DNA of 13,321 nt from Deltaproteobacteria bacterium (GTDB lineage: Bacteria; Desulfobacterota; DSM-4660; Desulfatiglandales; Desulfatiglandaceae), in the NCBI GenBank assembly GCA_018644785.1, contig JABGPV010000142.1:1-13321 (forward strand), read 5' to 3'. The position numbers and the translations under genes are program-made. The notes under the pieces are model-generated. The model was not told the DNA's origin and ran no database searches. It was given only the letters and a program-made list of their open reading frames with translations. Positions 1-13,191 of the stretch are shown here, in pieces. The first letter of the stretch is position 1. Each line of letters starts with the position of its first letter.

Positions 1-1139
1 TGGACACGCCGTTTATCCGCGCCGCACTTCAAAAGCAAATTCCCCTTATGGGAGAAATGGAGTTGGCAGCGCGACATGTTGACGCCCCCATGATTGCCGT
101 TACCGGAACAAACGGCAAGACCACCGTGACCTCATTTCTGGGTCAACTGCTTGAAAATGCGGGGTATGATGTTTTTGTCGGCGGCAATATCGGCACCCCT
201 TTAACCGCGTACCTGGCCGGGGAAAAAAAAGCAGACTATCTGGTGGTGGAAGTCAGTAGTTTCCAACTGGATACCATACAACAGTTCAGCCCCGAAATTT
301 CTATGATTCTGAACATATCACCGGACCATCTGGACCGATATGCGGATTACCCGGCCTACATCAAATCCAAATTGAGAATTTTTGAAAATCAGGGGCCCGG
401 ACAAACGGTCATCCTCAATGCCGATGATGCGGTGCTTTCAAATGTTACCCCACCCAACGGCACAACCGTTTTCCGTTACGGGGTAAAGAAGAATGAAGGA
501 ATAAACGCTTTCATTGAAAAAGGAGAAATTGTTTCAGCCGTAAATGGAAAGAATCATTTCAATCTAAACGCCTTTTCACTGGCAGGGTCTCACAATCTGG
601 AAAATCTCCTGGCCATTGTTCTGGCGGGCCGGGCCCTTGGGCTGGCACCTGAATCCATTCAAAAAACCATGGATGAATTCAAAGGACTTCCCAACAGGCT
701 GGAGTATACGAACCAGGTAAGCGGCATTCGATTTTATAACGATTCAAAAGCTACCAATGTGGATGCAGCCATCAGGGCCGTAAAGAGTTTTGACGACCCG
801 TTGATTCTCATCGCGGGAGGGAGGCATAAGGGTTCCGACTACCATCCTCTGGTTCAGTCATGCAGGGGTAACGTAAAGGGAGCGGTATTCATGGGCGAGG
901 CGGCAAGTCTCCTGGCCGAGGCTTTCACCGAACGTGTAAGGGCGAAAAATTTTTCGCCCCTACCTTTCTCTTTGGCAGAGAACATGAAAGACGCGGTTTC
1001 CAGGGCCTATGCCCTGGCCAAAAGTGGGGATATCGTACTGCTGGCGCCCGCCTGCTCGAGCTTTGATATGTTCAGGAATTACGATCACCGTGGCAGGGTT
1101 TTCAAAGCCGCTGTCGAGGACCTTTTAAATGGCCGCTAA
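1..1139 (+). CDS. murD: UDP-N-acetylmuramoyl-L-alanine--D-glutamate ligase, 5' partial
   Basis: MurD adds D-glutamate to UDP-MurNAc-L-Ala in the cytoplasm, using ATP. The frame is open from base 3 to the TAA at 1137-1139, giving 378 visible residues. The ATG at 48 is internal, because homologous sequence (a PLMGEMELA-type segment) continues upstream of it and the N-terminal UDP-binding domain lies outside the window. Visible landmarks are the ATP P-loop TGTNGKTT (102-125), the central-domain EVSSFQLD, NDSKATNVDA, the C-terminal-domain GGRHKGSDY, and APACSSFDMFRNYDHRG near the end, all typical of MurD. Nine or so residues (V-R-A-K-N-F-S-P-L, 936-963) are encoded by a palindromic repeat and look like an insertion in a loop of the C-terminal domain, just before FSLAENM. 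The 3' end overlaps the start of ftsW by 11 bases, suggesting translational coupling. Confidence 0.97.
   Translation, partial: DTPFIRAALQKQIPLMGEMELAARHVDAPMIAVTGTNGKTTVTSFLGQLLENAGYDVFVGGNIGTPLTAYLAGEKKADYLVVEVSSFQLDTIQQFSPEISMILNISPDHLDRYADYPAYIKSKLRIFENQGPGQTVILNADDAVLSNVTPPNGTTVFRYGVKKNEGINAFIEKGEIVSAVNGKNHFNLNAFSLAGSHNLENLLAIVLAGRALGLAPESIQKTMDEFKGLPNRLEYTNQVSGIRFYNDSKATNVDAAIRAVKSFDDPLILIAGGRHKGSDYHPLVQSCRGNVKGAVFMGEAASLLAEAFTERVRAKNFSPLPFSLAENMKDAVSRAYALAKSGDIVLLAPACSSFDMFRNYDHRGRVFKAAVEDLLNGR
936..963. repeat. GTAG-type palindromic element, type A, copy 1 (inside murD)
   Basis: A 28-base inverted repeat. The left arm is GTAAGGGCGAAAAA and the right arm TTTTTCGCCCCTAC, 14 bases each with no loop. 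They pair everywhere except at base 4, where A replaces the expected G. It lies wholly inside murD and is read in the phase GTA-AGG-GCG-AAA without a stop. Near-identical copies occur at 4787-4814 and 5533-5560, which argues for a dispersed element rather than chance. The segment falls in a MurD loop not expected to be conserved. Confidence 0.9.
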
Positions 1140-2232
1140 AGCAAAGGCATTCGAAGGATACAACCTCATGATCCTCATTCCGGTGATTCTCTTGATCGGC
1201 CTGGGGCTGCTCATGGTTTACAGCGCCAGCAGCAATCTTGCTGAACACCGTTTCGGGGACAGCAATTTCTATCTGAAACGGCAGATCCTGTTCTGCATTG
1301 TGGGAATTGCGACCATGCTGGTCACCCGATATATCCCCTGCACCCTTTATCAAAAAATGGCGTATCCCTTATTGCTGGCCAGCGCCCTTCTTCTGGTGCT
1401 CCTTTTTGTTCCCGGTCTGGGTCGCAAGGTGGGTGGCGCTTACCGATGGCTGAATCTGGGCGGGTTCTCTTTCCAACCATCTGAAATCGTGAAATTTTCC
1501 CTGGCGGTCTATCTGGCCTATTCCATGAGCAAGAAAGGGTCGGATCTCGAATTATTTACCAAGGGCCTGCTACCCCATATATTGGTGGTCGGCATATTCA
1601 TGGTGCTCATCTATCTGCAGCCGGATCTCGGCACCGCAGTCATTATCGGCGCCTGGTCGCTGGTGCTGCTGTTTGTGGGGGGCGTCAGGATCCTGCAACT
1701 GTTATCCCTTTTTCTGCTTGCGGCGCCATTTTTCATATACCTGGTCTGGAATGCCGAATACCGGGTCAAAAGGTGGCTGGCCTTCCTGAATCCCTGGGAC
1801 GATCCAAGGGGGATCGGTTTTCAAATCATACACTCTTTTCTGGCATTTGGTTCGGGGGGTATTTTCGGTGCGGGCCTGGGCAACAGCAAGCAGAAACTTT
1901 TTTATCTGCCGGAACCCCATACCGATTTCGCCCTTTCCATCATGGGCGAAGAACTGGGCTTTGTCGGTGTAACCGCCACCATAGTGCTCTTCGGTGTTTT
2001 GATTATGGGGGGCATTCGAATCGCCCTCAACAGCAAAGATCTTTACAGCAGCTATCTGGCCCTCGGTTTAACGTGTTTCCTGGGCCTCCAGGTGATTGTC
2101 AACATGGCCGTGGTCCTGGGACTGCTGCCCACAAAAGGGCTCACGCTTCCCCTTATTAGTTATGGTGGATCATCCCTGGTGATGACCCTGGCGGGCATCG
2201 GGGTTCTGCTGAACATTTCTTCCAGGAACTGA
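1129..2232 (+). CDS. ftsW: Cell division peptidoglycan glycosyltransferase FtsW (SEDS family)
   Basis: FtsW is the multi-pass inner-membrane SEDS protein that polymerises lipid II into septal glycan strands, working with the transpeptidase FtsI/PBP3. The 367-residue product has about ten hydrophobic segments, beginning with the helix around residues 13-31 that ends in MVYSAS, a SEDS hallmark. Other family signatures are LGRKVGGAYRWLNLG, FQPSEIVKFSLAVYLA, YLQPDLGTA, the extracellular loop YLPEPHTDFALSIMGEELGF, and the C-terminal LPLISYGGSS. The Asp of HTDF (residue 266) corresponds to the acidic residue shown to be essential in SEDS polymerases. Position between murD and murG is the classic place for ftsW rather than rodA. 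The ATG at 1129 overlaps the end of murD, with GAGG at about 1115-1118 as a possible ribosome site. murG starts 3 bases after the stop. Confidence 0.97.
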   Translation: MAAKAKAFEGYNLMILIPVILLIGLGLLMVYSASSNLAEHRFGDSNFYLKRQILFCIVGIATMLVTRYIPCTLYQKMAYPLLLASALLLVLLFVPGLGRKVGGAYRWLNLGGFSFQPSEIVKFSLAVYLAYSMSKKGSDLELFTKGLLPHILVVGIFMVLIYLQPDLGTAVIIGAWSLVLLFVGGVRILQLLSLFLLAAPFFIYLVWNAEYRVKRWLAFLNPWDDPRGIGFQIIHSFLAFGSGGIFGAGLGNSKQKLFYLPEPHTDFALSIMGEELGFVGVTATIVLFGVLIMGGIRIALNSKDLYSSYLALGLTCFLGLQVIVNMAVVLGLLPTKGLTLPLISYGGSSLVMTLAGIGVLLNISSRN

Positions 2233-2235
2233 CGG

Positions 2236-3423
2236 ATGACGGGTAACAGACGACAGAGGACGGAGGACAGAGGACGGGGTAGGGGCAGGTCTCGTGCCTG
2301 CCCATCTGATGATAGAGGAAAGAAATTACAGTGCATTATCGCAGGGGGCGGGACCGGTGGGCACCTGTTTCCCGGGATTGCCATTGCGAGGGAATTGGAA
2401 AAAAGATGCACGGACACGGCTGTTCTTTTTGTGGTGGGTCGCAGAAGGATGGAGTCGGAAATCCTCAGGCGCTACGGCTTTCAGGTGGAATTTATCGATG
2501 TTGAAGGCATGAAAGGCCGCGGATGGAAAAAAGGGCTCGCCGTTTTGAGCATGCTCCCGAGGAGTCTGGTTCAGTCCATGAGAATTATTAAGGATTTCAA
2601 ACCGTCATTTGTGATGGGAGTGGGCGGCTATTCCGCAGGCCCGTTCTGCCTGGCGGCCAGGCTACTGGGTGTTCCCACGGCCATTCATGAACAGAATTCA
2701 TACCCTGGGTTGACCAACCGTTTGTTGGCCCGTGTGGTGGATCACATTTTCGTCTCCTTCGCGGAAAGCGCGCCATATTTCAAGAAAAGTATCCTCACGG
2801 GGAATCCGGTCCGGCATGAATTACTGTCACCCCCACAAGATTCATTGCCCCCGAACGATAAATTCAGAGTTCTGGTGGTGGGGGGCAGTCAGGGGGCCAG
2901 GGCCATCAACGAAGCTTTTGTAAAGGCGTATGGTATTTTGAAAAAATCGGGAAAAAGATTCACCTTCATTCACCAAACCGGTCAGCACGATTACAAAAGG
3001 GTACTAGAAAATTACCGAGACGAAGGAGTTGAAGCCCGTGAACTTGAAGCAAATGTGTCTTCCTTTATCAAAGATATGGGTTCAGCCTATCACCGGGCGG
3101 ACATGGTGGTCAGCCGGGCCGGGGCGACAACCCTGTTTGAACTGGCGGCCCTTGGAAAGCCGTCGATCCTCATCCCCTATCCCCATGCGACCAATGGACA
3201 CCAGGAAACCAATGCCCGGTCTCTGGCTCGCTCGGGCGGAGCGGAGGTGGTGCTTCAAAAGGATCTGACCCCTGAAGGGCTGGCGAATACCCTTTCAACA
3301 TACATGGACCATCCGCAACAGTTAAAAAAGATGGGTGGCGCAGCCCGAACTTTCAGCAGACCGGATGCAGACCGAATCATTGTGGATCAAATCTTAAAAC
3401 TGACGAGCCAGGTGGAAACATGA
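2236..3423 (+). CDS. murG: Lipid II synthase: UDP-GlcNAc--undecaprenyl-PP-MurNAc-pentapeptide GlcNAc transferase
   Basis: MurG transfers GlcNAc from UDP-GlcNAc to lipid I on the inner face of the membrane, making lipid II. The glycine-rich loop GGGTGGH is at residues 37-43. GVGGYSAGP, HEQNSYPGLTNRLLA, GGSQGARAIN, SRAGATTLFELAALGKPSILIPYP and the nucleotide-sugar segment around GHQETNA follow in family order. The protein is 395 residues, about 30 longer than usual, because the body (from about KKLQCIIAGGG) is preceded by an Arg-rich tail. That tail is encoded by a 12-base direct repeat and a type B palindrome. No in-frame ATG, GTG or TTG exists between 2236 and the glycine loop, so ATG 2236 is the only conventional start. 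AGGA at 2224-2227 gives a plausible ribosome site for it. The stop overlaps the murC start (ATGA, 3420-3423). The true N-terminus is the uncertain point; the function is not. Confidence 0.95.
   Translation: MTGNRRQRTEDRGRGRGRSRACPSDDRGKKLQCIIAGGGTGGHLFPGIAIARELEKRCTDTAVLFVVGRRRMESEILRRYGFQVEFIDVEGMKGRGWKKGLAVLSMLPRSLVQSMRIIKDFKPSFVMGVGGYSAGPFCLAARLLGVPTAIHEQNSYPGLTNRLLARVVDHIFVSFAESAPYFKKSILTGNPVRHELLSPPQDSLPPNDKFRVLVVGGSQGARAINEAFVKAYGILKKSGKRFTFIHQTGQHDYKRVLENYRDEGVEARELEANVSSFIKDMGSAYHRADMVVSRAGATTLFELAALGKPSILIPYPHATNGHQETNARSLARSGGAEVVLQKDLTPEGLANTLSTYMDHPQQLKKMGGAARTFSRPDADRIIVDQILKLTSQVET
2252..2277 (+). repeat. Exact 12-base direct repeat in the 5' coding end of murG
   Basis: GACAGAGGACGG occurs at 2252-2263 and again at 2266-2277, separated by AG, in a purine-rich tract that starts just after the murG start codon. 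It is read as the Arg/Glu/Asp-rich part of the MurG N-terminal tail. It abuts the GTAG palindrome that begins at 2279, so the two may have arrived together or mark a site of repeated rearrangement. Confidence 0.85.
2279..2306 (+). repeat. GTAG-type palindromic element, type B, copy 1 (murG N-terminal coding region)
   Basis: It begins GTAGGGGCAGG and contains the inverted repeat GGGCAGG (2283-2289) and CCTGCCC (2297-2303) around a 7-base loop. Its reverse complement matches 5855-5883 in ftsQ with three substitutions and one indel over about 28 bases, so the two are the same element in opposite orientations. It shares the GTAGGGGC end with the type A palindromes but has a different core. In murG it is read in frame (GGT-AGG-GGC-AGG) with no stop. 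Confidence 0.8.
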
Positions 3424-4790
3424 AACAGTTCGGCAAAGCAAAACATATCCATTTTGTGGGCATCGGGGGCATTGGCATGAGCGGTCTGGCCGAACTGCTG
3501 ATCAACCTGGGATACACGGTTAGTGGCTCCGATCTAAAGGATTCCACTGCCACCCGAAGGCTTTTGAAAATGGGATGTCGGATCTTCAAAGGTCATGACC
3601 GCAATAACATTCAGGACGTCGACGTGGTAGTCTACTCCTCAGCGGTCGGCCTTCAAAACCCGGAACTTCTGGAAGCCAAAGACCGGTATATCCCTGTCAT
3701 CCCCAGGGCTGAAATGCTCTCCGAACTCATGCGGCTCAAATATGGCGTGGCCATCGCAGGCGCCCATGGCAAAACCACCACCACATCAATGGTCGCCTCC
3801 ATATTAACAAAGGGGGAACTCGACCCCACGGTGGTAATCGGCGGGCGCCTCGATATCTGGGGAGGATCCAACGCCAAACTGGGCCAGGGGGATATCCTGG
3901 TGGCTGAGGCGGACGAAAGCGACGGCTCATTTCTCACGTTGACCCCCACCATCGCGGTGGTGACCAACATCGACCACGAACACATGGACCATTATGGCAG
4001 CATGGCGGCCATTCGCCGAACTTTTCTGGACTTCATCAATAAGATCCCCTTTTACGGGACCGCCATCCTCTGCCAGGATAACGAAGAAATTCAAGGCATT
4101 ATCCCACAGCTAAAAAAGAGATACATCACTTACGGCATGAGCACCCAGGCCGAGGTTAGGGGTAAAAATCTGAAAAACGAGAAGTGGGGGACCAGCCTTG
4201 AGATCATTTACCACAATCATTCCATGGGACGTATTTCCGTGGGAATGCCCGGCGAGCACAACGCTTTAAACGCTTTGGCCGCAACCGCAGTAGCACTTGA
4301 GCTTGACCTGGAAATGGGAGTCATTCGGGAGGGGCTCACCGCACTTGGGGGTCTTTCGAGACGTCTCCAGATCAAGGGAGAAAAAAACGGGGTTCTGTTT
4401 ATGGATGATTACGGACATCATCCAACCGAAATTGTGGCGACCCTTAAAACAGTGAAAGCCTGCCGGTCGGAAAAACGGCTGGTCGTTGTGTTCCAGCCAC
4501 ACCGATACACCCGAACCCAGGCCTTACTGGATCGCTTTGTAATCGCCTTTAACGATGCGGATGTCCTTGTGGTGACGCCCATTTATCCGGCGGGGGAACA
4601 ACCCATCGAGGGGATAACCGCGGAAAATCTGGTCAAGGCCATCAAGGACCACGGACACAAAGAAGCGCTTTTCTGCCCCGATCTTGCGCATGTGGGGCCC
4701 ACACTGGAAAAATTGACCCGCCCCGGAGACCTTGTTCTGACACTGGGGGCCGGCAACATCAACAAGGAAGGAGAACGGTTTTTGGAGTAG
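3420..4790 (+). CDS. murC: UDP-N-acetylmuramate--L-alanine ligase
   Basis: MurC uses ATP to attach L-alanine to UDP-MurNAc, the first step of stem-peptide assembly in the cytoplasm. The 456-residue product has the N-terminal Rossmann motif VGIGGIGMSG (13-22), the P-loop GAHGKTTTT (114-122), EADESDGSF, the metal-site region TNIDHEHMDHYG, MPGEHNALNALAA, DDYGHHPTEI and FQPHRYTRT, and ends with TLGAGNINK, all in the usual order. Start ATG 3420 overlaps the murG stop by four bases. The TAG stop at 4788-4790 is formed by the first bases of a type A palindrome (GTAG, 4787-4790). The native C-terminus may therefore have been a few residues different, but all catalytic regions are intact and the length is normal for the family. 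Confidence 0.98.
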   Translation: MKQFGKAKHIHFVGIGGIGMSGLAELLINLGYTVSGSDLKDSTATRRLLKMGCRIFKGHDRNNIQDVDVVVYSSAVGLQNPELLEAKDRYIPVIPRAEMLSELMRLKYGVAIAGAHGKTTTTSMVASILTKGELDPTVVIGGRLDIWGGSNAKLGQGDILVAEADESDGSFLTLTPTIAVVTNIDHEHMDHYGSMAAIRRTFLDFINKIPFYGTAILCQDNEEIQGIIPQLKKRYITYGMSTQAEVRGKNLKNEKWGTSLEIIYHNHSMGRISVGMPGEHNALNALAATAVALELDLEMGVIREGLTALGGLSRRLQIKGEKNGVLFMDDYGHHPTEIVATLKTVKACRSEKRLVVVFQPHRYTRTQALLDRFVIAFNDADVLVVTPIYPAGEQPIEGITAENLVKAIKDHGHKEALFCPDLAHVGPTLEKLTRPGDLVLTLGAGNINKEGERFLE

Positions 4791-4814
4791 GGGCGAAAAA
4801 ATTTTCGCCCCTAC
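4787..4814. repeat. GTAG-type palindromic element, type A, copy 2 (murC/murB junction)
   Basis: The least degraded copy. It has 13-base perfectly complementary arms, GTAGGGGCGAAAA and TTTTCGCCCCTAC, around a central AA. Bases 2-4 (TAG) are the murC stop codon. The right end lies 12 bases before the murB ATG, so the element fills most of the intergenic space. As RNA it would form a strong hairpin, but there is no following U tract and murB, ftsQ and the rest continue on the same strand, so it is not a convincing terminator. Confidence 0.92.
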
Positions 4815-4826
4815 GGCTGACAAAAC

Positions 4827-5771
4827 ATGAACGTTCGTCAAAAAGAAGCCCTTGCGCAAATGACGGGAGAAAGGATCAGGTTCCACTACCCGATGCATCG
4901 AGTCACCACATATAAGGTGGGTGGGCCCGTTGAAGCCCTTTGGGAAGCCCGTGACCTTACAACACTTAAAAAGGTCATCCGGTATCTTTCCCTTGAGAAC
5001 ATCCCCTACGGCGCACTGGGCAGGGGGAGTAATTTACTGGTAAAAGACGAAGGCATTGACGGGGTTATGATACTTTTTAAGGGATCACTCGCGGCAATCA
5101 AAGCGGGTGCAAAAAAAACCCTGGTATGGGCGGGCGGCGGCGTTCACCTCACTGATTTGATGAGTTGGTGCCGGCAAAGGGGTATGTCGGGCCTGGAATT
5201 TCTTACCGGGATACCCGGGACGGTCGGCGGGGCGGTGGCCATGAATGCGGGGGCCTTCGGGCAAGAGATCAATGAAAGAATCAAGACCCTTCAATTTGTG
5301 TTTCCCGGGGGCACACAGGTTGAAATGAACCGTTCAGAGCTCAAATTCTCATACCGTCGCCTTCACATGGAAGAAGGGCGATTGGTGACAAACACCTGTT
5401 TTAGCCTGAACAAGGCTACACCGAAAGCGGTGTCTGAGAAAATGGGCGGTTTTCTCAAAACTCGAAAACAGACCCAACCCCTGGAGTACCCGAGTGCCGG
5501 TTCCGTGTTCAAAAACCCATCCGGCGCCCCGCGTACGGGCGAAAAATCTTTCGCCCCTACCCAAGGGGCGGGCAGGCTTATTGAAAAAGCAGGGCTCAAA
5601 GGAAAGAGAATCGGCGGCGCCATGGTTTCGGAGAAACATGCCAACTTCATTGTGAACGAAGGCGGCGCCACCGCAGGAGATATTCTGAGGCTTATGGATC
5701 TGGTGCGTCTTGAGGTCAAACGGACGTCGGGCATAGACCTGGAGCCGGAAATCCGGGTTTTGGGGAAATAG
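4827..5771 (+). CDS. murB: UDP-N-acetylenolpyruvoylglucosamine reductase
   Basis: MurB is the FAD- and NADPH-dependent reductase that completes UDP-MurNAc. The FAD-binding region includes YKVGGP, LGRGSNLLV and GIPGTVGGAVAMNAGAFG. The substrate domain has FSYR and the AGSVFKNP motif, whose Ser226 matches the catalytic serine of the family, and the C-terminal LEPEIRVLG carries the conserved glutamate. Family members usually go from FKNP to AGxLIEKAGLKG with only a few residues between. Here about 16 intervene, of which roughly ten (R236 to T245) come from a type A palindrome. The frame stays open and the flanking motifs are intact, so an active enzyme with a lengthened loop is likely. The ATG at 4827 has no clear Shine-Dalgarno sequence directly upstream, because a palindrome fills that space. 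ftsQ begins 51 bases after the stop. Confidence 0.96.
   Translation: MNVRQKEALAQMTGERIRFHYPMHRVTTYKVGGPVEALWEARDLTTLKKVIRYLSLENIPYGALGRGSNLLVKDEGIDGVMILFKGSLAAIKAGAKKTLVWAGGGVHLTDLMSWCRQRGMSGLEFLTGIPGTVGGAVAMNAGAFGQEINERIKTLQFVFPGGTQVEMNRSELKFSYRRLHMEEGRLVTNTCFSLNKATPKAVSEKMGGFLKTRKQTQPLEYPSAGSVFKNPSGAPRTGEKSFAPTQGAGRLIEKAGLKGKRIGGAMVSEKHANFIVNEGGATAGDILRLMDLVRLEVKRTSGIDLEPEIRVLGK
5533..5560. repeat. GTAG-type palindromic element, type A, copy 3 (inside murB)
   Basis: A 28-base inverted repeat, GTACGGGCGAAAAA then TCTTTCGCCCCTAC, matching copy 2 except for C at base 4 and a few changes at the centre. It is read as CGT-ACG-GGC-GAA-AAA-TCT-TTC-GCC-CCT-ACC, a different phase from the murD copy. 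It lies between the catalytic FKNP segment and the AGRLIEKAGLKG segment of MurB, where homologues have a short loop. Confidence 0.9.
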
Positions 5772-5822
5772 GCACGAAGGGTTTGGGCATAACCAAGATC
5801 GGTCAATAGGGGCAATTTTAAG

Positions 5823-6677
5823 ATGAGAAAAAGTTTCAAAAAGCAACGGGTTCAGACGGGCAGGCACGGGGACCGGCCCCTACCCCACAACAGGCGAAAA
5901 CCTTCAAAGATTCCCGTTGCGGGCATTATCCGGAACATCGGTTCAAGTGTTCTGAAAGTCTTTCTGTTTTTGTCTGTTCTGACTGCCATCAGCTTGACCT
6001 TCGTCATGCTCTACAACTACCTGCTCTCTTCTCCCTACATGAAACTGGCGCACGTGGAGATCCGGGGGGTTGATAAAAGCACAAAAAATGAACTGCTTCA
6101 AATGTGCGGGCTGACATCTGAGCAGGGATTACTGAGTCTCAAGCTCGGCGCTTTGAAAAAACGAATGGAAAAGCATCCATGGGTCAGGAGTGCCACCGTA
6201 GAAAGAAGATTTCCAGACACCTTGATTGTGGAGGTACAAAAAGAGGAACCGGTGATGTTGGTCTTGTTGGATCAATTTTTTTACATGAACCGACAGGGAC
6301 GCCTGTTCAAGCCGGTCTCGCGGGACGAGGAAATGGATTTTCCCATTTTGACGGGTCTTTCCAAAACAGATCCCGGCCAAAAAGAAAAACTGGATCAAAC
6401 GGCTCATGTGTTGAACGTGCTGAAAGCGCAAAAAGACCGTTGGTCCCTTCAAAACCTGTCCGAAATACATCTGAATAAGAATGGCGGGCTCTCTTTATAT
6501 TTCAATCATATCCGGGCCGCAATCCGCATTCCCCGGCACAATCTGGCCCGCAACATGGAAACGCTGAAACAGGTGACAAAACATTTAAGCAAAACAGGAA
6601 AAATCAACCTTGTGACCCAGATTGACCTGAACCATGTGGATGGCGCAATTGTATCTTTTAAAAAGAATCAGGTTTGA
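5823..6677 (+). CDS. ftsQ: Cell division protein FtsQ (DivIB-like)
   Basis: FtsQ is a single-pass inner-membrane divisome protein that recruits FtsB/FtsL and helps control septal synthesis. The 284-residue product has a basic cytoplasmic tail (1-40), one transmembrane helix (about 42-66), and a POTRA domain (about 71-142) with MKLAHVEIRGV, KHPWVRSATVERRFPDTLIVEVQKEEPVM. A beta domain follows, including FFYMNRQGRLFKP and FPILTGL. This order and the position between murB and ftsA identify it. AGGGG at 5808-5812 is a well-placed ribosome site for ATG 5823. Residues about 11-21 of the cytoplasmic tail are encoded by a type B palindrome. Because this tail varies widely between species, the insertion is probably tolerated. 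The stop lies 25 bases before ftsA. Confidence 0.94.
   Translation: MRKSFKKQRVQTGRHGDRPLPHNRRKPSKIPVAGIIRNIGSSVLKVFLFLSVLTAISLTFVMLYNYLLSSPYMKLAHVEIRGVDKSTKNELLQMCGLTSEQGLLSLKLGALKKRMEKHPWVRSATVERRFPDTLIVEVQKEEPVMLVLLDQFFYMNRQGRLFKPVSRDEEMDFPILTGLSKTDPGQKEKLDQTAHVLNVLKAQKDRWSLQNLSEIHLNKNGGLSLYFNHIRAAIRIPRHNLARNMETLKQVTKHLSKTGKINLVTQIDLNHVDGAIVSFKKNQV
5855..5883 (-). repeat. GTAG-type palindromic element, type B, copy 2 (ftsQ N-terminal coding region)
   Basis: On the plus strand it runs from GACGGGCAGGCACGG to GACCGGCCCCTAC, so the GTAGGGGC end is on the minus strand. It is the inverted counterpart of 2279-2306, sharing the run GGGCAGGCACG and the CCCCTAC end. The arms pair imperfectly (GGGCAGG against CCGGCCC), so this copy is more decayed. 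It is translated in frame within the FtsQ cytoplasmic tail. Confidence 0.75.
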
Positions 6678-9219: not shown

Positions 9220-9257
9220 TCCGTTAAACCATTTGTGATTGAAAGGTTCCAAAACCC

Positions 9258-11036
9258 GTGTCTGATGACATCACAGCCCTTTACCGCGCCATATTGGCAA
9301 AAGAAAAGGGTGCCATTCGAAAAAACTGGGGGGGGAAGATGCCCGTTGCGTTGGCATTCCCCAACCAATATCGATTGGGTATGTCAAATCTGGGGCTTCA
9401 GATCGTCTACCGGCTTCTGAATGAAAGAACGGATGTGGTGGCTGAGCGTTTTTTCCTGCCCGAGGGTCGGGAGATGGCCCTCTACCTTCGTGGTGAAGGG
9501 CCTCTTGTTTCCCTGGAATCACAGACGCCGCTGACAAAGTTTGACCTGGCAGCCTTCTCAATATCCTTTGAAAATGACTATCCGAATGTTCTTCAAATGT
9601 TGAAAATGGGGAAGGTTCCACTCCTTTCAGAGGAAAGAGGTGAAAAAGACCCTTTTGTCATGGCGGGAGGCGTTGCGTCTTTTCTCAATCCGGAGCCATT
9701 AGCGCCTTTTATGGATTTCTTTCTGTTGGGTGAAGCAGAACAGAACCTGCATCCATTCGTGGATGCCTTTCTGGAATTTGGAAGAAATACCGTCAAACGA
9801 AGGGACGTGCTCCTTCACCTGGCAAGGAATGTAGCAGGGCTTTATGCACCATCCCTTTACGACGTGGCATACAAAAAAAACGGAACACTGAAGCATTTTT
9901 TTCCGTCAGTAAAAGATGTGCCCGAGAAAGTTAAGGCATTACATGCTCCAAAAGGGGGATTTACGGATAAGGGGATGCCGCTTTCATGCATCACCACTCC
10001 GGATACCGAATTCGGCAGCAAGGTCCTTGTGGAGGTCAGCAGAGGTTGTGGTCATGCGTGCCGTTTCTGTGCAGCAGGCTATGTTTACCGCCCACCGCGG
10101 GTTTACGGGGAAAGCAACCTTAAGGAAGGTGTTAACGCAGCCCTCAAACGGTGCCCCCAGGTAGGCCTGGTGAGTCCTGCCGTATCGGACGTACCGGGAA
10201 TAGAAGCATTAATGGGCATGATTCACCACGATGGCGGCAGGTTTTCAGTTTCATCCCTGAGGGCCGAAAACCTGACCCGGAGTCTTCTGAAACATCTGAA
10301 AGAATCAGGCCAGAAAACCATCGCCATTGCGCCTGAGGCGGGGAGTCAGAGACTTCGAAATATCATCAACAAGCATTTGACAGAGGAACAGATTCTAAGC
10401 GCTGCCCGCATGATCTCCGGTGTCAGCAATTTTTCAATCAGGCTTTATTTCCTCATGGGGCTTCCCACCGAAAGCTCCCGGGATGTGAATGAAATTACCG
10501 AACTGGTCAAAAAAATCAAGCACCAGATGGTCAAGGAATCGGCGGCCAGAGGAAAAATCGGTCGCATTAAACTCAGTGTCAATTGTTTTATCCCAAAACC
10601 CTTTACCCCTTTTCAGTGGTTTCCCATGGAAGAAGTCGGGTCGCTAAAAAAAAACCAACAGCAGCTGAAAAAATCGCTTGTTAAATCCGGTGGCATTATG
10701 GTTAATTCTGACGTTCCCAAATGGGCCTACATCCAGGCATTGCTCTCACTTGGGGATAGACGGGTGAGCACCATACTGCAAAGTGCGCACAAACTGAATG
10801 GCAACTGGAAGAAAGCCATGCAGCTTTCTCAGATAAACCCTGATTTTTTCGTGCATCGCCCAAAAAACCTTGATGAACTGCTTCCGTGGGATTTTATTGA
10901 CCACGGGATTACAAAGAAGCATCTTGAAACAGAATACCATCTGGCGCTTGAGGGCAGGTTATCGGATATCTGCAGGGTGGGAGAGTGTGTTCGGTGCGGC
11001 GTATGCCGGGAAAAATCTAAATCGAGGGAATCATAA
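9258..11036 (+). CDS. B12-binding-type radical SAM protein (TIGR03960-like), function unknown
   Basis: A 592-residue radical SAM enzyme. The N-terminal part (LAFPNQYRLGMSNLGLQIVY, then RFFLPEG) resembles the cobalamin-binding-like domain of the TIGR03960 family, without an evident DxHxxG cobalamin motif. The radical SAM core has the cluster motif CGHACRFC, with Cys264, Cys268 and Cys271 expected to ligate a 4Fe-4S cluster. It is followed by strands such as SLRAENLT and IAPEAGSQRLR that are typical of the TIM barrel. The C-terminus is Cys-rich (CRVGECVRCGVC), possibly a second metal site. The start is GTG 9258 with GAAAGG at 9241-9246. Relatives of this family often have a DUF2344/TIGR03936 partner or fused domain, and none is in this window. 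The reaction and substrate cannot be named from sequence. It runs straight into the next gene, overlapping by one base (TAATG). Confidence 0.85.
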   Translation: MSDDITALYRAILAKEKGAIRKNWGGKMPVALAFPNQYRLGMSNLGLQIVYRLLNERTDVVAERFFLPEGREMALYLRGEGPLVSLESQTPLTKFDLAAFSISFENDYPNVLQMLKMGKVPLLSEERGEKDPFVMAGGVASFLNPEPLAPFMDFFLLGEAEQNLHPFVDAFLEFGRNTVKRRDVLLHLARNVAGLYAPSLYDVAYKKNGTLKHFFPSVKDVPEKVKALHAPKGGFTDKGMPLSCITTPDTEFGSKVLVEVSRGCGHACRFCAAGYVYRPPRVYGESNLKEGVNAALKRCPQVGLVSPAVSDVPGIEALMGMIHHDGGRFSVSSLRAENLTRSLLKHLKESGQKTIAIAPEAGSQRLRNIINKHLTEEQILSAARMISGVSNFSIRLYFLMGLPTESSRDVNEITELVKKIKHQMVKESAARGKIGRIKLSVNCFIPKPFTPFQWFPMEEVGSLKKNQQQLKKSLVKSGGIMVNSDVPKWAYIQALLSLGDRRVSTILQSAHKLNGNWKKAMQLSQINPDFFVHRPKNLDELLPWDFIDHGITKKHLETEYHLALEGRLSDICRVGECVRCGVCREKSKSRES

Positions 11037-11608
11037 TGCTTAGACAACTCGCTGTCGGCCCTTACCAGGCCAACTGCTACATTCTGGGTTGCGACCAGAC
11101 CCAAGAGGGCCTGGTCATCGACCCGGGGGATGAAGCCGTTCGCATTGTAACGGAGATCTCCAAATTGGGGCTTAAAATCCGCTATATCCTCATCACCCAC
11201 GGTCATGTGGATCATGTGGGGGGTGCCGGGGAATTGAAAGAAATCACCAAAGCCCCCGTATGGATACACCCTCTGGATGCGGGCGCCTTGGGCTTCCCCG
11301 CTGATGGGGATTTGTTTGAAGGCCAGGAAATCGCTTTGGGGAAATTCACCCTTTCGGTGATCCACACCCCGGGCCATTCCCTTGGAGGCGTCTGCTTTCA
11401 TGCACCGGGAGCGGTCTTCACCGGTGACACCCTGTTTGCCGGTTCCATCGGACGGACGGACTTTCCCGGCGGCAATCACGAGCAATTGATCCAGGGCGTT
11501 GTGGAAAAGATTTTCCCCCTCGGCGATGAATTGCGCGTCTATCCGGGTCATGGCCCCCACAGCACCATCGGCCAGGAAAGAAAATTCAACCCGTTTTTCA
11601 GGGGTTAG
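11036..11608 (+). CDS. MBL-fold metallohydrolase, glyoxalase II/YcbL-like
   Basis: A 190-residue single-domain metallo-beta-lactamase fold protein with the complete metal-binding set: THGHVDH (His55, His57, Asp59, His60), His114 in HTPGHSLGG, Asp131 in FTGDTLF, and His172 in YPGHGP. The opening GPYQANCYILGC and the ending GQERKFNPFF are typical of the short glyoxalase II-like (YcbL/GloC) group that hydrolyses thioesters such as S-lactoylglutathione. It lacks the substrate-binding C-terminal domain of full-length GloB, so the true substrate is uncertain. The start ATG 11036 overlaps the upstream radical SAM stop and has GAGGGA at about 11024-11029. The pair is probably cotranscribed and translationally coupled. 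Confidence 0.87.
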   Translation: MLRQLAVGPYQANCYILGCDQTQEGLVIDPGDEAVRIVTEISKLGLKIRYILITHGHVDHVGGAGELKEITKAPVWIHPLDAGALGFPADGDLFEGQEIALGKFTLSVIHTPGHSLGGVCFHAPGAVFTGDTLFAGSIGRTDFPGGNHEQLIQGVVEKIFPLGDELRVYPGHGPHSTIGQERKFNPFFRG

Positions 11609-11615
11609 GACTCGA

Positions 11616-12545
11616 TCAAATCCGAACCGTCATGTTATCGTGCGCCACGGTAACGGAATAGGGAACATCGTGGTCCGAGAGAATCCGGTCCACGGTTTTC
11701 TGCCATTGCGCTTGGTTTCCGGGGATGGGATACGGATCCTCCCCCCGGAGCGGCTTCAAGGGATCTTTGGGTTCGTATTTCTTGGCCATATGGTTCGCCG
11801 GATCCCCCGGGACCCTGTCCGCATCTCCCATATGGACCAGGAAGGTTTCTTTTTGGGGCTCCAATCGTTTTATATATTGAATGGCATTCTGAAAACTCAT
11901 ATGGCTCGGCCGGTTGTCAACAGGCTCATTCAGCCAGAAAGACTGCATAATCAAATGGTCACATCCCACCAACTCTGAGGACATATCCGGAATGTGGGCA
12001 AAATCAGACGTGTACAGAAGTTTCGTTTCCGCACCCGAACGATCCCGGCCCTGAACCACAAATCCAACGGAACCTTTAGCAAAATTCCCGTGGTCTGTCT
12101 TAAACGGAAAAACCCGGAATGGTCCCTGCTCGAACCATTGCCCGGGTTCAATTGCCACAAACCGGATTACCCCCAGTTTTTCCAGATAGGCGAATCTGGC
12201 CTCAACCACTTCATGTGTCTGATGGGTCAGATAGACCGGAATAGGCGAAAACTCTTCCTTTGGCAGCACCCTTTTATACACAAAAAGTTCGTCCAGCCCG
12301 ATATAGTGGTCATTATGTTCATGGCTGATCAGAACCGCATCGATTTTTTTCACCTTGTTCCGCGACAGTTGTTCTTTGGCATCGGGTCCACAATCAATGA
12401 GCAAGGTGGCATCACCTTCAGTCAAAAGGATTGACGTGCGGTCCCGCCGTTCCTGTTGCGCCCTCATTTCTTTGCAGATGGCGCAGTCGCAGTTCATTTC
12501 GGGCACCCCCCATGCGGCGCCGGTTCCTAAAAATGTGATATCCAT
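11616..12545 (-). CDS. MBL-fold metallohydrolase, PhnP-like (COG1235)
   Basis: The metallo-beta-lactamase fold is shown by SHEHNDHYIGLDEL (His75, His77, Asp79, His80), His152 in KTDHG, Asp181 in YTSDFAH and His238 in LVHMGDAD. The opening FLGTGAAWGVPEMNCDCAIC, with Cys19, Cys21 and Cys24, matches the N-terminal zinc-site region of PhnP, the phosphoribosyl cyclic phosphate phosphodiesterase. No phn genes are nearby, so a phosphonate role is not supported and the substrate is open. I chose the ATG at 12545 because MDITFLGTG is the usual family start and AGGGGA lies about 11 bases upstream. An in-frame ATG at 12593 would add 16 residues and overlap the upstream gene. The stop is only seven bases from the convergent gene's stop. 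Confidence 0.82.
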   Translation of the reverse strand: MDITFLGTGAAWGVPEMNCDCAICKEMRAQQERRDRTSILLTEGDATLLIDCGPDAKEQLSRNKVKKIDAVLISHEHNDHYIGLDELFVYKRVLPKEEFSPIPVYLTHQTHEVVEARFAYLEKLGVIRFVAIEPGQWFEQGPFRVFPFKTDHGNFAKGSVGFVVQGRDRSGAETKLLYTSDFAHIPDMSSELVGCDHLIMQSFWLNEPVDNRPSHMSFQNAIQYIKRLEPQKETFLVHMGDADRVPGDPANHMAKKYEPKDPLKPLRGEDPYPIPGNQAQWQKTVDRILSDHDVPYSVTVAHDNMTVRI

Positions 12546-12579
12546 TATGTTCTGTTTCCCCTGTTCATCTGGAAAGTCT

Positions 12580-13191
12580 TTACGCTTTCTCATAAAGGGC
12601 CAAGACCCCTTCCATGGGGCTGAGTTCCTTCATGAGTCGAAACCCCGGATAACGGGGCATTATTTTGTGAAGCCCATAGACCATGTAAACAGCGCCTTTC
12701 TTTGCCTTTTCCGCCAGCATATGCGCAAACTCCTCATTCATGATCAAGTAAGTGTAAAAAAAATCGAAATCGGCCAGATCGAGACCCGTTTCATGAATGA
12801 TTTGACCATGGACCGTTTCATCCGTAGCGTCTCCTTGAAACAGGTAGACATTTTCATTGGGGGGCGATATTCCCGCCGTCTTCAATGTTTCCAGCAGTTC
12901 CCTTCTCAGCGGATCATATTCATCCAACGTCCATTCATCCAGTTCAACACCCACGGAGACGCGCATCAGATAACTGAAAAAGAGATTGACCCTGCCATCG
13001 GCGCATCCCATATCCAAAAAAGCACTTTGACCCGGTATGATGATGTTCTCCGCGATCAAACGCTCCGCGCAGGCCAGAAGGGTCGTCAGGTTCGTGGACC
13101 GCCTGAACCCCAGAGGACCCACATCACCCACCCGTCTTGCGTCAAAGAATTGGGAAAGTTTGATCAGGCTGTTTTTTATTCCGTCGTCCAT
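12580..13191 (-). CDS. Putative class I SAM-dependent methyltransferase-like protein
   Basis: A 203-residue protein with the outline of a Rossmann-fold methyltransferase: glycine-rich motif I FLDMGCADGRV (58-68), an acidic residue after strand 2 in GVELDEW (81-87), FQGDAT (118-123) as the motif III-like region, and DFDFFYTYLIM (141-151) at the motif IV position. No DPPY/NPPY-type catalytic motif of DNA or N6-amino methyltransferases is seen, so the target is not predictable. The first 35 residues (ending SLIKLSQFFDARRVG) form a helical lead-in. No good ribosome site precedes ATG 13191, and the start overlaps the 3' end of the upstream partial frame by 16 bases, so coupling is likely. The PhnP-like gene follows 34 bases downstream, or overlaps if its upstream start is used. 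Confidence 0.7.
   Translation of the reverse strand: MDDGIKNSLIKLSQFFDARRVGDVGPLGFRRSTNLTTLLACAERLIAENIIIPGQSAFLDMGCADGRVNLFFSYLMRVSVGVELDEWTLDEYDPLRRELLETLKTAGISPPNENVYLFQGDATDETVHGQIIHETGLDLADFDFFYTYLIMNEEFAHMLAEKAKKGAVYMVYGLHKIMPRYPGFRLMKELSPMEGVLALYEKA

Follow-up and report, generated by a model that had tools for sequence, protein, structure and literature searches.

The stretch of DNA analysed here, called the window below, is 13,321 nt of contig JABGPV010000142.1 from a sulfate-reducer-like deltaproteobacterium. It carries a division and cell wall (dcw) cluster in the order murD, an ftsW-like gene, murG, murC, murB, ftsQ, ftsA and ftsZ, with gene names read from the program-listed open frames. 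Scattered from murD to ftsQ are five short palindromes, three of one type (A) and two of another (B), listed in Table 1. They are very probably repetitive extragenic palindromes (REPs), short non-autonomous elements mobilised by a REP-associated tyrosine transposase (RAYT, also TnpA-REP) of the subclass 2.4 kind. An earlier note on this DNA had reported all five, and direct inspection found each of them in its place.

Table 1. Palindromic elements of the window and the dcw genes that carry or border them
Feature	Position	Strand	Remarks
Type A double-foot REP copy 1	936..963	.	left foot GTAA; in frame within murD; VRAKNFSPL(P)
Type B REP copy 1	2279..2303	+	single GTAG foot; in frame, murG 5' end; (G)RGRSRACP
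Type A double-foot REP copy 2	4787..4814	.	both feet intact; between murC and murB
Type A double-foot REP copy 3	5533..5560	.	left foot GTAC; in frame within murB; RTGEKSFAPT
Type B REP copy 2	5855..5883	-	opposite orientation, decayed; in frame, ftsQ 5' end; TGRHGDRPLP
murD	3..1139	+	5' end beyond window; host of type A copy 1
murG	2236..3423	+	host of type B copy 1; gene name by reading
murC	3420..4790	+	stop TAG at 4788-4790 inside type A copy 2, supplied by its GTAG
murB	4827..5771	+	host of type A copy 3
ftsQ	5823..6677	+	host of type B copy 2; name read from cluster position

The type A copies read GTAAGGGCGAAAAATTTTTCGCCCCTAC (936-963), GTAGGGGCGAAAAAATTTTCGCCCCTAC (4787-4814) and GTACGGGCGAAAAATCTTTCGCCCCTAC (5533-5560) and differ pairwise at 2-3 of 28 positions. 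Of the three, only the copy at 4787 has both the GTAG and the CTAC foot intact; one foot is altered in each of the copies at 936, 5533, 2279 and 5855. The double foot that marks one class of REP, a 5' GT[AG]G paired with a 3' C[TC]AC, is thus complete at 4787, has one foot base altered at 936 and 5533, and is lacking in both type B copies of the window. The earlier note held that GTAG is itself part of the palindrome, so that an element reads the same in both orientations; this is true of type A, with both feet intact in one copy, and not of type B. The type B pair is weaker and less alike than the type A trio. Compared with an idealised type B sequence of 29 positions, the copy at 2279 has 3 mismatches, and that at 5855 gives no match at up to 10 mismatches without gaps, aligning by eye with a length difference of 1 nt. 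No further type A copy was found in the window within 10 mismatches, ungapped. The elements have the form of GTAG REPs, palindromes of 20-40 bp with GTAG at the foot, the copy at 5855 barely folding. Four of the five lie inside open reading frames and the set is therefore not mostly extragenic, as REPs usually are.

We compared the palindromes with 100 dinucleotide-preserving shuffles of the window. The three strongest palindromes of the window are the three type A copies. The copy at 4787 scores 13, where the best palindrome from all shuffles scores 11; the copies at 936 and 5533, at 11 and 9, are not outstanding alone. Three palindromes score at least 9, against a mean of 0.51 per shuffled window. 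Folded as RNA, the type A copies reach z-scores of -5.7 to -6.4, with 0, 1 and 0 of 200 shuffles folding equally well. The copy at 2279 folds with its GTAG unpaired at the 5' foot (z -3.7), and that at 5855 is not clearly more stable than its shuffles, whichever strand is folded (z -0.1 and -0.9).

Insertion sites and their alleles

The nearest sequence in the genome collection (L001, in genome G001) is from a Desulfobacteraceae metagenome-assembled genome whose MurC is 88% identical. Over 9.7 kb the window aligns with L001 at 84% identity, with a second relative (L002) at 80% and with delta proteobacterium NaphS2 (L003) at 79%. Against L001, every window insertion of at least 6 nt in these 9.7 kb falls at one of the five element sites, and none of the five sites is occupied in L001, L002 or L003. 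L001 itself has two extra stretches near 9221-9232, and L002 and L003 show further unrelated length changes, including a 7-nt window insertion at 6676. Net gains against L001 are 24 nt in murD, 21 nt in murB and 18 nt in ftsQ, all multiples of three, and 31 nt at the type B copy in murG. The paired ends GTAGGGGC-N(0-30)-GCCCCTAC are present in none of 80 related loci, not all of which span the whole cluster. The five palindromes are real and inserted. Presence in one genome and absence from its close relatives, a mark of mobility in GTAG REPs, is what is seen here.

The extra residues should be translated in MurG and FtsQ, since start codons are found only ahead of the elements: in murG the sole in-frame start codon within 2236-2344 is at 2236, and in ftsQ the sole one of the stretch examined likewise precedes the element. 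In MurB the insertion site is a loop that is 12 residues shorter in the three solved MurB proteins that match best, and this natural variation in length suggests that an insert may be tolerated there.

We surveyed MurB and MurD homologs. Of 120 listed MurB homologs, 100 matched the motif and could be scored, and five of these were filled, that is, carried the insert. A tree of the remaining MurB sequence was built from 48 rows including the window (P0019 failed the cut; P0042, P0045, P0049 and rows beyond P0051 were unused). The filled rows (the window, P0001, P0002, P0003, P0012 and P0027) share the position and frame of the insert and are scattered in the tree beside empty ones, the window and P0001 with P0005, and P0012 with P0028. 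A single clade of filled MurB was rejected (p 3.9e-7 in the approximately unbiased (AU) test); the tree requires five changes, four of them forced by starred branches. For MurD, 50 of 120 listed homologs were examined and 30 had the motif; six of the 30 encode the same peptide as the window. In what appears, by an equal longest contig of 42630, to be a single organism the two genes are uncoupled, with MurD filled (P0245) and MurB empty (P0006). According to the earlier note, ordinary coding sequence would be conserved in place in distant relatives. Instead, the sites are empty in the three aligned relatives and polymorphic among closer MurB and MurD homologs.

The murB copy may have a history of its own. 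A single filled allele could have arisen once and spread between species by homologous recombination, or could be an old polymorphism; we give this slightly less than an even chance. It refines the explanation by mobile REPs and does not exclude it. The residue that follows the insert is Q in every filled row and P or L in empty rows of the FST type, and this shared Q, with the shared position and frame, speaks for one origin followed by spread rather than repeated insertion. The rejection of a single filled clade on the remaining MurB and the uncoupled MurD and MurB states are consistent with such spread. Against it, the evidence consists of protein data and the group was named after the alleles had been seen, 15 of 45 inner branches of the tree are open, and repeated losses, or insertion with a preference for the site, would give a similar picture.

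Palindromes in RAYT genes and across genomes

No transposase is found among the open frames of the window, as the earlier note said. Its suggestion of a RAYT-like origin draws support from relatives. In genome G044 a RAYT gene (L239:1452-2033) contains the consensus type A 28-mer in frame and reads it as VGAKNFSPL; G044 belongs to the same family group as G001, the nearest kin of the window in the collection. The G044 RAYT matches the NCBIfam family REP_Tyr_transpos (E 1.8e-16). Judged by eye against the residues given by Quentin et al. 2018 (PMC6006769), its motifs MPNHVH, YITNN and WQRNYYEHIIR have the HuH, the catalytic Y with an N four residues further and the W Q....E H..R residues, and the last includes the W, Q, E, H and R described as contacting GTAG. 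At a second locus (L083) a variant with a different centre lies inside a RAYT-like frame.

We searched 395 genomes of the phylum (E 1e-10) with the portion of the L083 RAYT ahead of its insert. We rely on this insert-free query because the query behind an earlier homolog set (best 120, of which 109 had the peptide motif) itself contained the motif. RAYTs of the L083 type were matched in 87 of the 395 genomes. Separately, plasmid records gave three RAYT matches, 37-65% identical. The best 110 loci, the weaker end of the list being omitted, yielded 118 alignments and from these 101 unique rows with the HUH motif by pattern, 17 rows being dropped. A palindrome lies at most 240 nt behind the HUH motif in 67 of the 101 rows, against 1.8 predicted by resampling each locus 20 times with a first-order Markov model. 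The inner palindrome is of the GGGGC type in 53 of the 67, and 48 of these 53 lie 15-62 nt behind the motif.

The inner palindromes also match their surroundings. In 31 of the 53 the centre of the inner palindrome recurs in the flanks of its own gene (700 nt upstream and 500 nt downstream), compared with 5.4% beside the genes of other loci, and none of 2000 permutations gave a value as high. Two of the 31 are neighbouring G044 genes that match via each other's inner copy. With 29 distinct centres among them, the palindromes track the gene rather than a shared sequence. In genome G363 the RAYT gene contains a palindrome (L251:4460) and has an identical one on either side (L251:4150 ahead and 4779 behind), with a fourth 1.4 kb further on (L251:6169). 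Among 36 clear GTAGGG inner copies, 25 are read as GTA GGG and 11 as.GT AGG, so both stop-free frames are used; the count stops at the first stop codon and so leaves out any copy whose TAG is read in frame, which would itself end the frame.

Across genomes the palindrome accompanies the gene. Sites like type A, with up to three mismatches, occur in eight of 46 family-group genomes (eight copies in G001), and a reversed control pattern in one of 46. In the phylum, GTAGGGGC-N(10-18)-GCCCCTAC is found in 113 of 395 genomes, with 1261 copies in all and a maximum of 112 per genome; the reversed control occurs in 24 genomes, one or two copies each. Of the 87 RAYT-positive genomes 58 have the palindrome, against 55 of the 308 RAYT-negative ones (odds ratio 9.2, Fisher p 1.8e-17, a nominal value because the genomes are related). 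At least three copies are found in 42 of the 87 and 22 of the 308 (odds ratio 12), and 1020 of the 1261 copies sit in RAYT-positive genomes. Its presence in 55 RAYT-negative genomes means that no presently detectable RAYT is needed for it to be there, and part of this occurrence is chance, given the genomes in which the reversed control was found. Four genomes without a match to this RAYT type (G119, G269, G398 and G146) have 18-36 copies each.

Ahead of a RAYT gene in G352 (L130, L298; G352:C66:79813-80153) stand seven tandem 29-bp REPs, mostly 46-47 nt apart; the matching locus L297 in the related genome G313 has two such copies listed. In the fetched loci GTAC is the commonest altered left foot (13; the next 6), as at 5533-5536 of the window, and these feet are not independent because most come from the single G352 array (8 of 14 places). 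A REP that is intact in G313:C40 (L295) is divided exactly at the palindrome centre by other sequence in G352:C5 (L303), which may be an insertion sequence or another mobile element. In RAYT homologs P0153, P0167, P0178, P0186 and P0203 the insert behind HUH has expanded into long peptide arrays, with GAHQHSPGNT or TVGAKNVI among the repeated units, as if a REP and its spacer had been multiplied in tandem within the gene. In P0145, P0152 and P0222 a second palindrome-like peptide (VGARCNVPLP, VGAYCNTPLP and VGARRAVPLP) lies near the C-terminus, at the protein level as if another type of REP had inserted there.

Relation to described palindromes

Elements of this kind are already known, as two papers describe double-foot, intra-transposase and intragenic REPs. 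Quentin et al. 2018 (PMC6006769) place TnpA-REPs with double-foot REPs in subclass 2.4 and report REPs within transposase genes, generally between HuH and Y with the frame kept. We therefore dropped the RAYT with an inner REP as a new finding. The window elements resemble these double-foot REPs in having a long stem with GTAG and CTAC at its opposite ends. The published ones lie in or beside the transposase, whereas the window copies lie in essential dcw genes and two of the three type A copies have a mutated foot.

Di Nocera et al. 2013 (PMC3733652) describe GTAG REP families with intragenic copies, a minority in published families, and with the TAG of GTAG serving as stop codon of flanking frames. 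Its families include numbers 11 (G. uraniireducens) and 14 (D. alkenivorans). The window elements share with them the GTAG tag, a hairpin of 20-40 bp, copies in open reading frames and TAG stops. Classical GTAG REPs leave the GTAG unpaired, whereas window type A pairs it. The Rickettsia palindromic elements (RPEs) treated in the same paper are alike in being palindromes in frame within protein genes. RPE-4 and RPE-6 are counted with the CGTC repeats, for which no link to a transposase was found, whereas the elements here are of the GTAG type with a link to a RAYT. The portions used of PMC6006769, PMC3733652, PMC8266576 (Corneloup et al. 2021) and PMC2817692 (Nunvar et al. 2010) do not mention dcw genes or double-foot REPs of Desulfobacterota, which implies no claim on the wider literature.

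In the window, a class of REP that has been described but little studied is found in four core proteins of the cell wall and of cell division. It is a clear example of a known REP type within essential genes, with allele differences among close relatives in murB and murD. An in-frame peptide such as VGAKNFSPL or RTGEKSFAPT in a conserved protein can stem from a REP insertion and need not be a feature of the domain. The pairs of RAYT and REP with inner, upstream and downstream copies offer material for testing the step of REP insertion.

Origin of the elements

We infer that a RAYT moved the elements in this organism by a single-strand mechanism and that the insertions are tolerated rather than beneficial. 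The REPs would have entered the murD-ftsQ region once it had diverged from that of the nearest sequenced genomes, probably in the form of single-stranded hairpins on a replicating strand. The RAYT would bind the folded single strand through GTAG and the stem, cut it and join it into the new place. Harmless insertions, in frames that avoid the TAG of GTAG, would have been kept and those in harmful frames lost. The kept sites are predicted to be loops or N-terminal tails of the murD, murG, murB and ftsQ products; an insertion just behind murC would also have been kept, its TAG becoming the stop codon.

Several observations weigh against this explanation. The link between REP and RAYT comes from relatives, the source genome having been examined through the window. 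The net gains of 24, 21 and 18 nt are unequal to an element length of 28/29 nt, so the insertions were not simple or were altered later. No intact, close empty site showing the junctions was found in comparisons of G226 with G424 and of G313 with G352 or in a search for genus mates of G363. Between G226 and G424 one comparison met a palindrome-like but diverged sequence at the orthologous position and another had no orthologous stretch; G313 and G352 gave the REP divided at its centre, described above, and a stretch beside a RAYT locus that was without an intact counterpart; and the search for genus mates returned only G363 itself. The RAYTs of G044 and L083 score below curated cut-offs, at 60.3 and 56.6 of 80 bits for NF047646 and 21.1 and 21.0 of 23 bits for PF01797; we think that the inner insert splits the profile match. 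In G044 the palindromes beside the RAYT gene differ in centre from the inner one, which is type A. G001 has its eight copies and the search at E 1e-10 found no RAYT of this type in it, 38 of the 46 family-group genomes are without a type A-like site, and RAYT-negative genomes carry up to 36 copies of the palindrome. For type B the link to a RAYT would be one of resemblance, its copies being decayed.

A broader proposal, which we regard as speculative and on balance unlikely, joins three ideas: that double-foot REPs are coding-compatible by design, that the inner copy is a protected master and that the filled murB allele spreads by recombination. On each strand two of the three frames of such a REP would be open, and a symmetric type A copy would give the same peptide from either strand. 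REPs could thereby live inside essential genes and inside the gene of their own transposase. The inner copy would keep the RAYT gene and its flanking REPs in step.

It is improbable that a different enzyme of the IS200-type TnpA kind, or replication slippage or recombination, moves the elements and that the RAYT is associated with them by descent only. Such a mover would fit the presence of a Y1_Tnp match of some kind in 44 of 46 family-group genomes, the RAYT-negative genomes that have the palindrome and the G001 copies that exist without this RAYT. However, inner and flanking palindromes match their own RAYT locus by locus, and palindrome and RAYT co-occur strongly. Moreover, among 30 Y1_Tnp loci (L100-L129) 24 have neither GTAGGGG nor CCCCTAC, and the other six have one or two such ends, none closely paired.

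Still less probable is that the palindromes are selected regulatory hairpins or binding sites of the dcw operon, such as attenuators or mRNA processing sites, and not mobile. The type A copies do fold as RNA far above shuffles and one copy sits between murC and murB, as such a role would have it. However, the sites are empty in the three aligned relatives, the paired ends are missing from all 80 related loci (some of which cover the cluster partly), and the murD and murB copies come and go among close homologs. The same palindrome also occurs in RAYT genes, and a scan of the window against Rfam gave no family at its gathering score. That GC-rich coding sequence produced the palindromes by chance has a negligible probability: one as strong as the 5533 copy arises about once per two shuffled windows, but chance is excluded because the three type A 28-mers are nearly identical, and the elements also coincide with every window insertion of at least 6 nt against L001 and the same 28-mers are present in other genomes.

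Downstream of ftsZ, at 9258-12593 of the window, a long open frame has a cysteine motif like that of radical-SAM proteins and two other frames resemble the metallo-beta-lactamase fold, the names again being given by reading.

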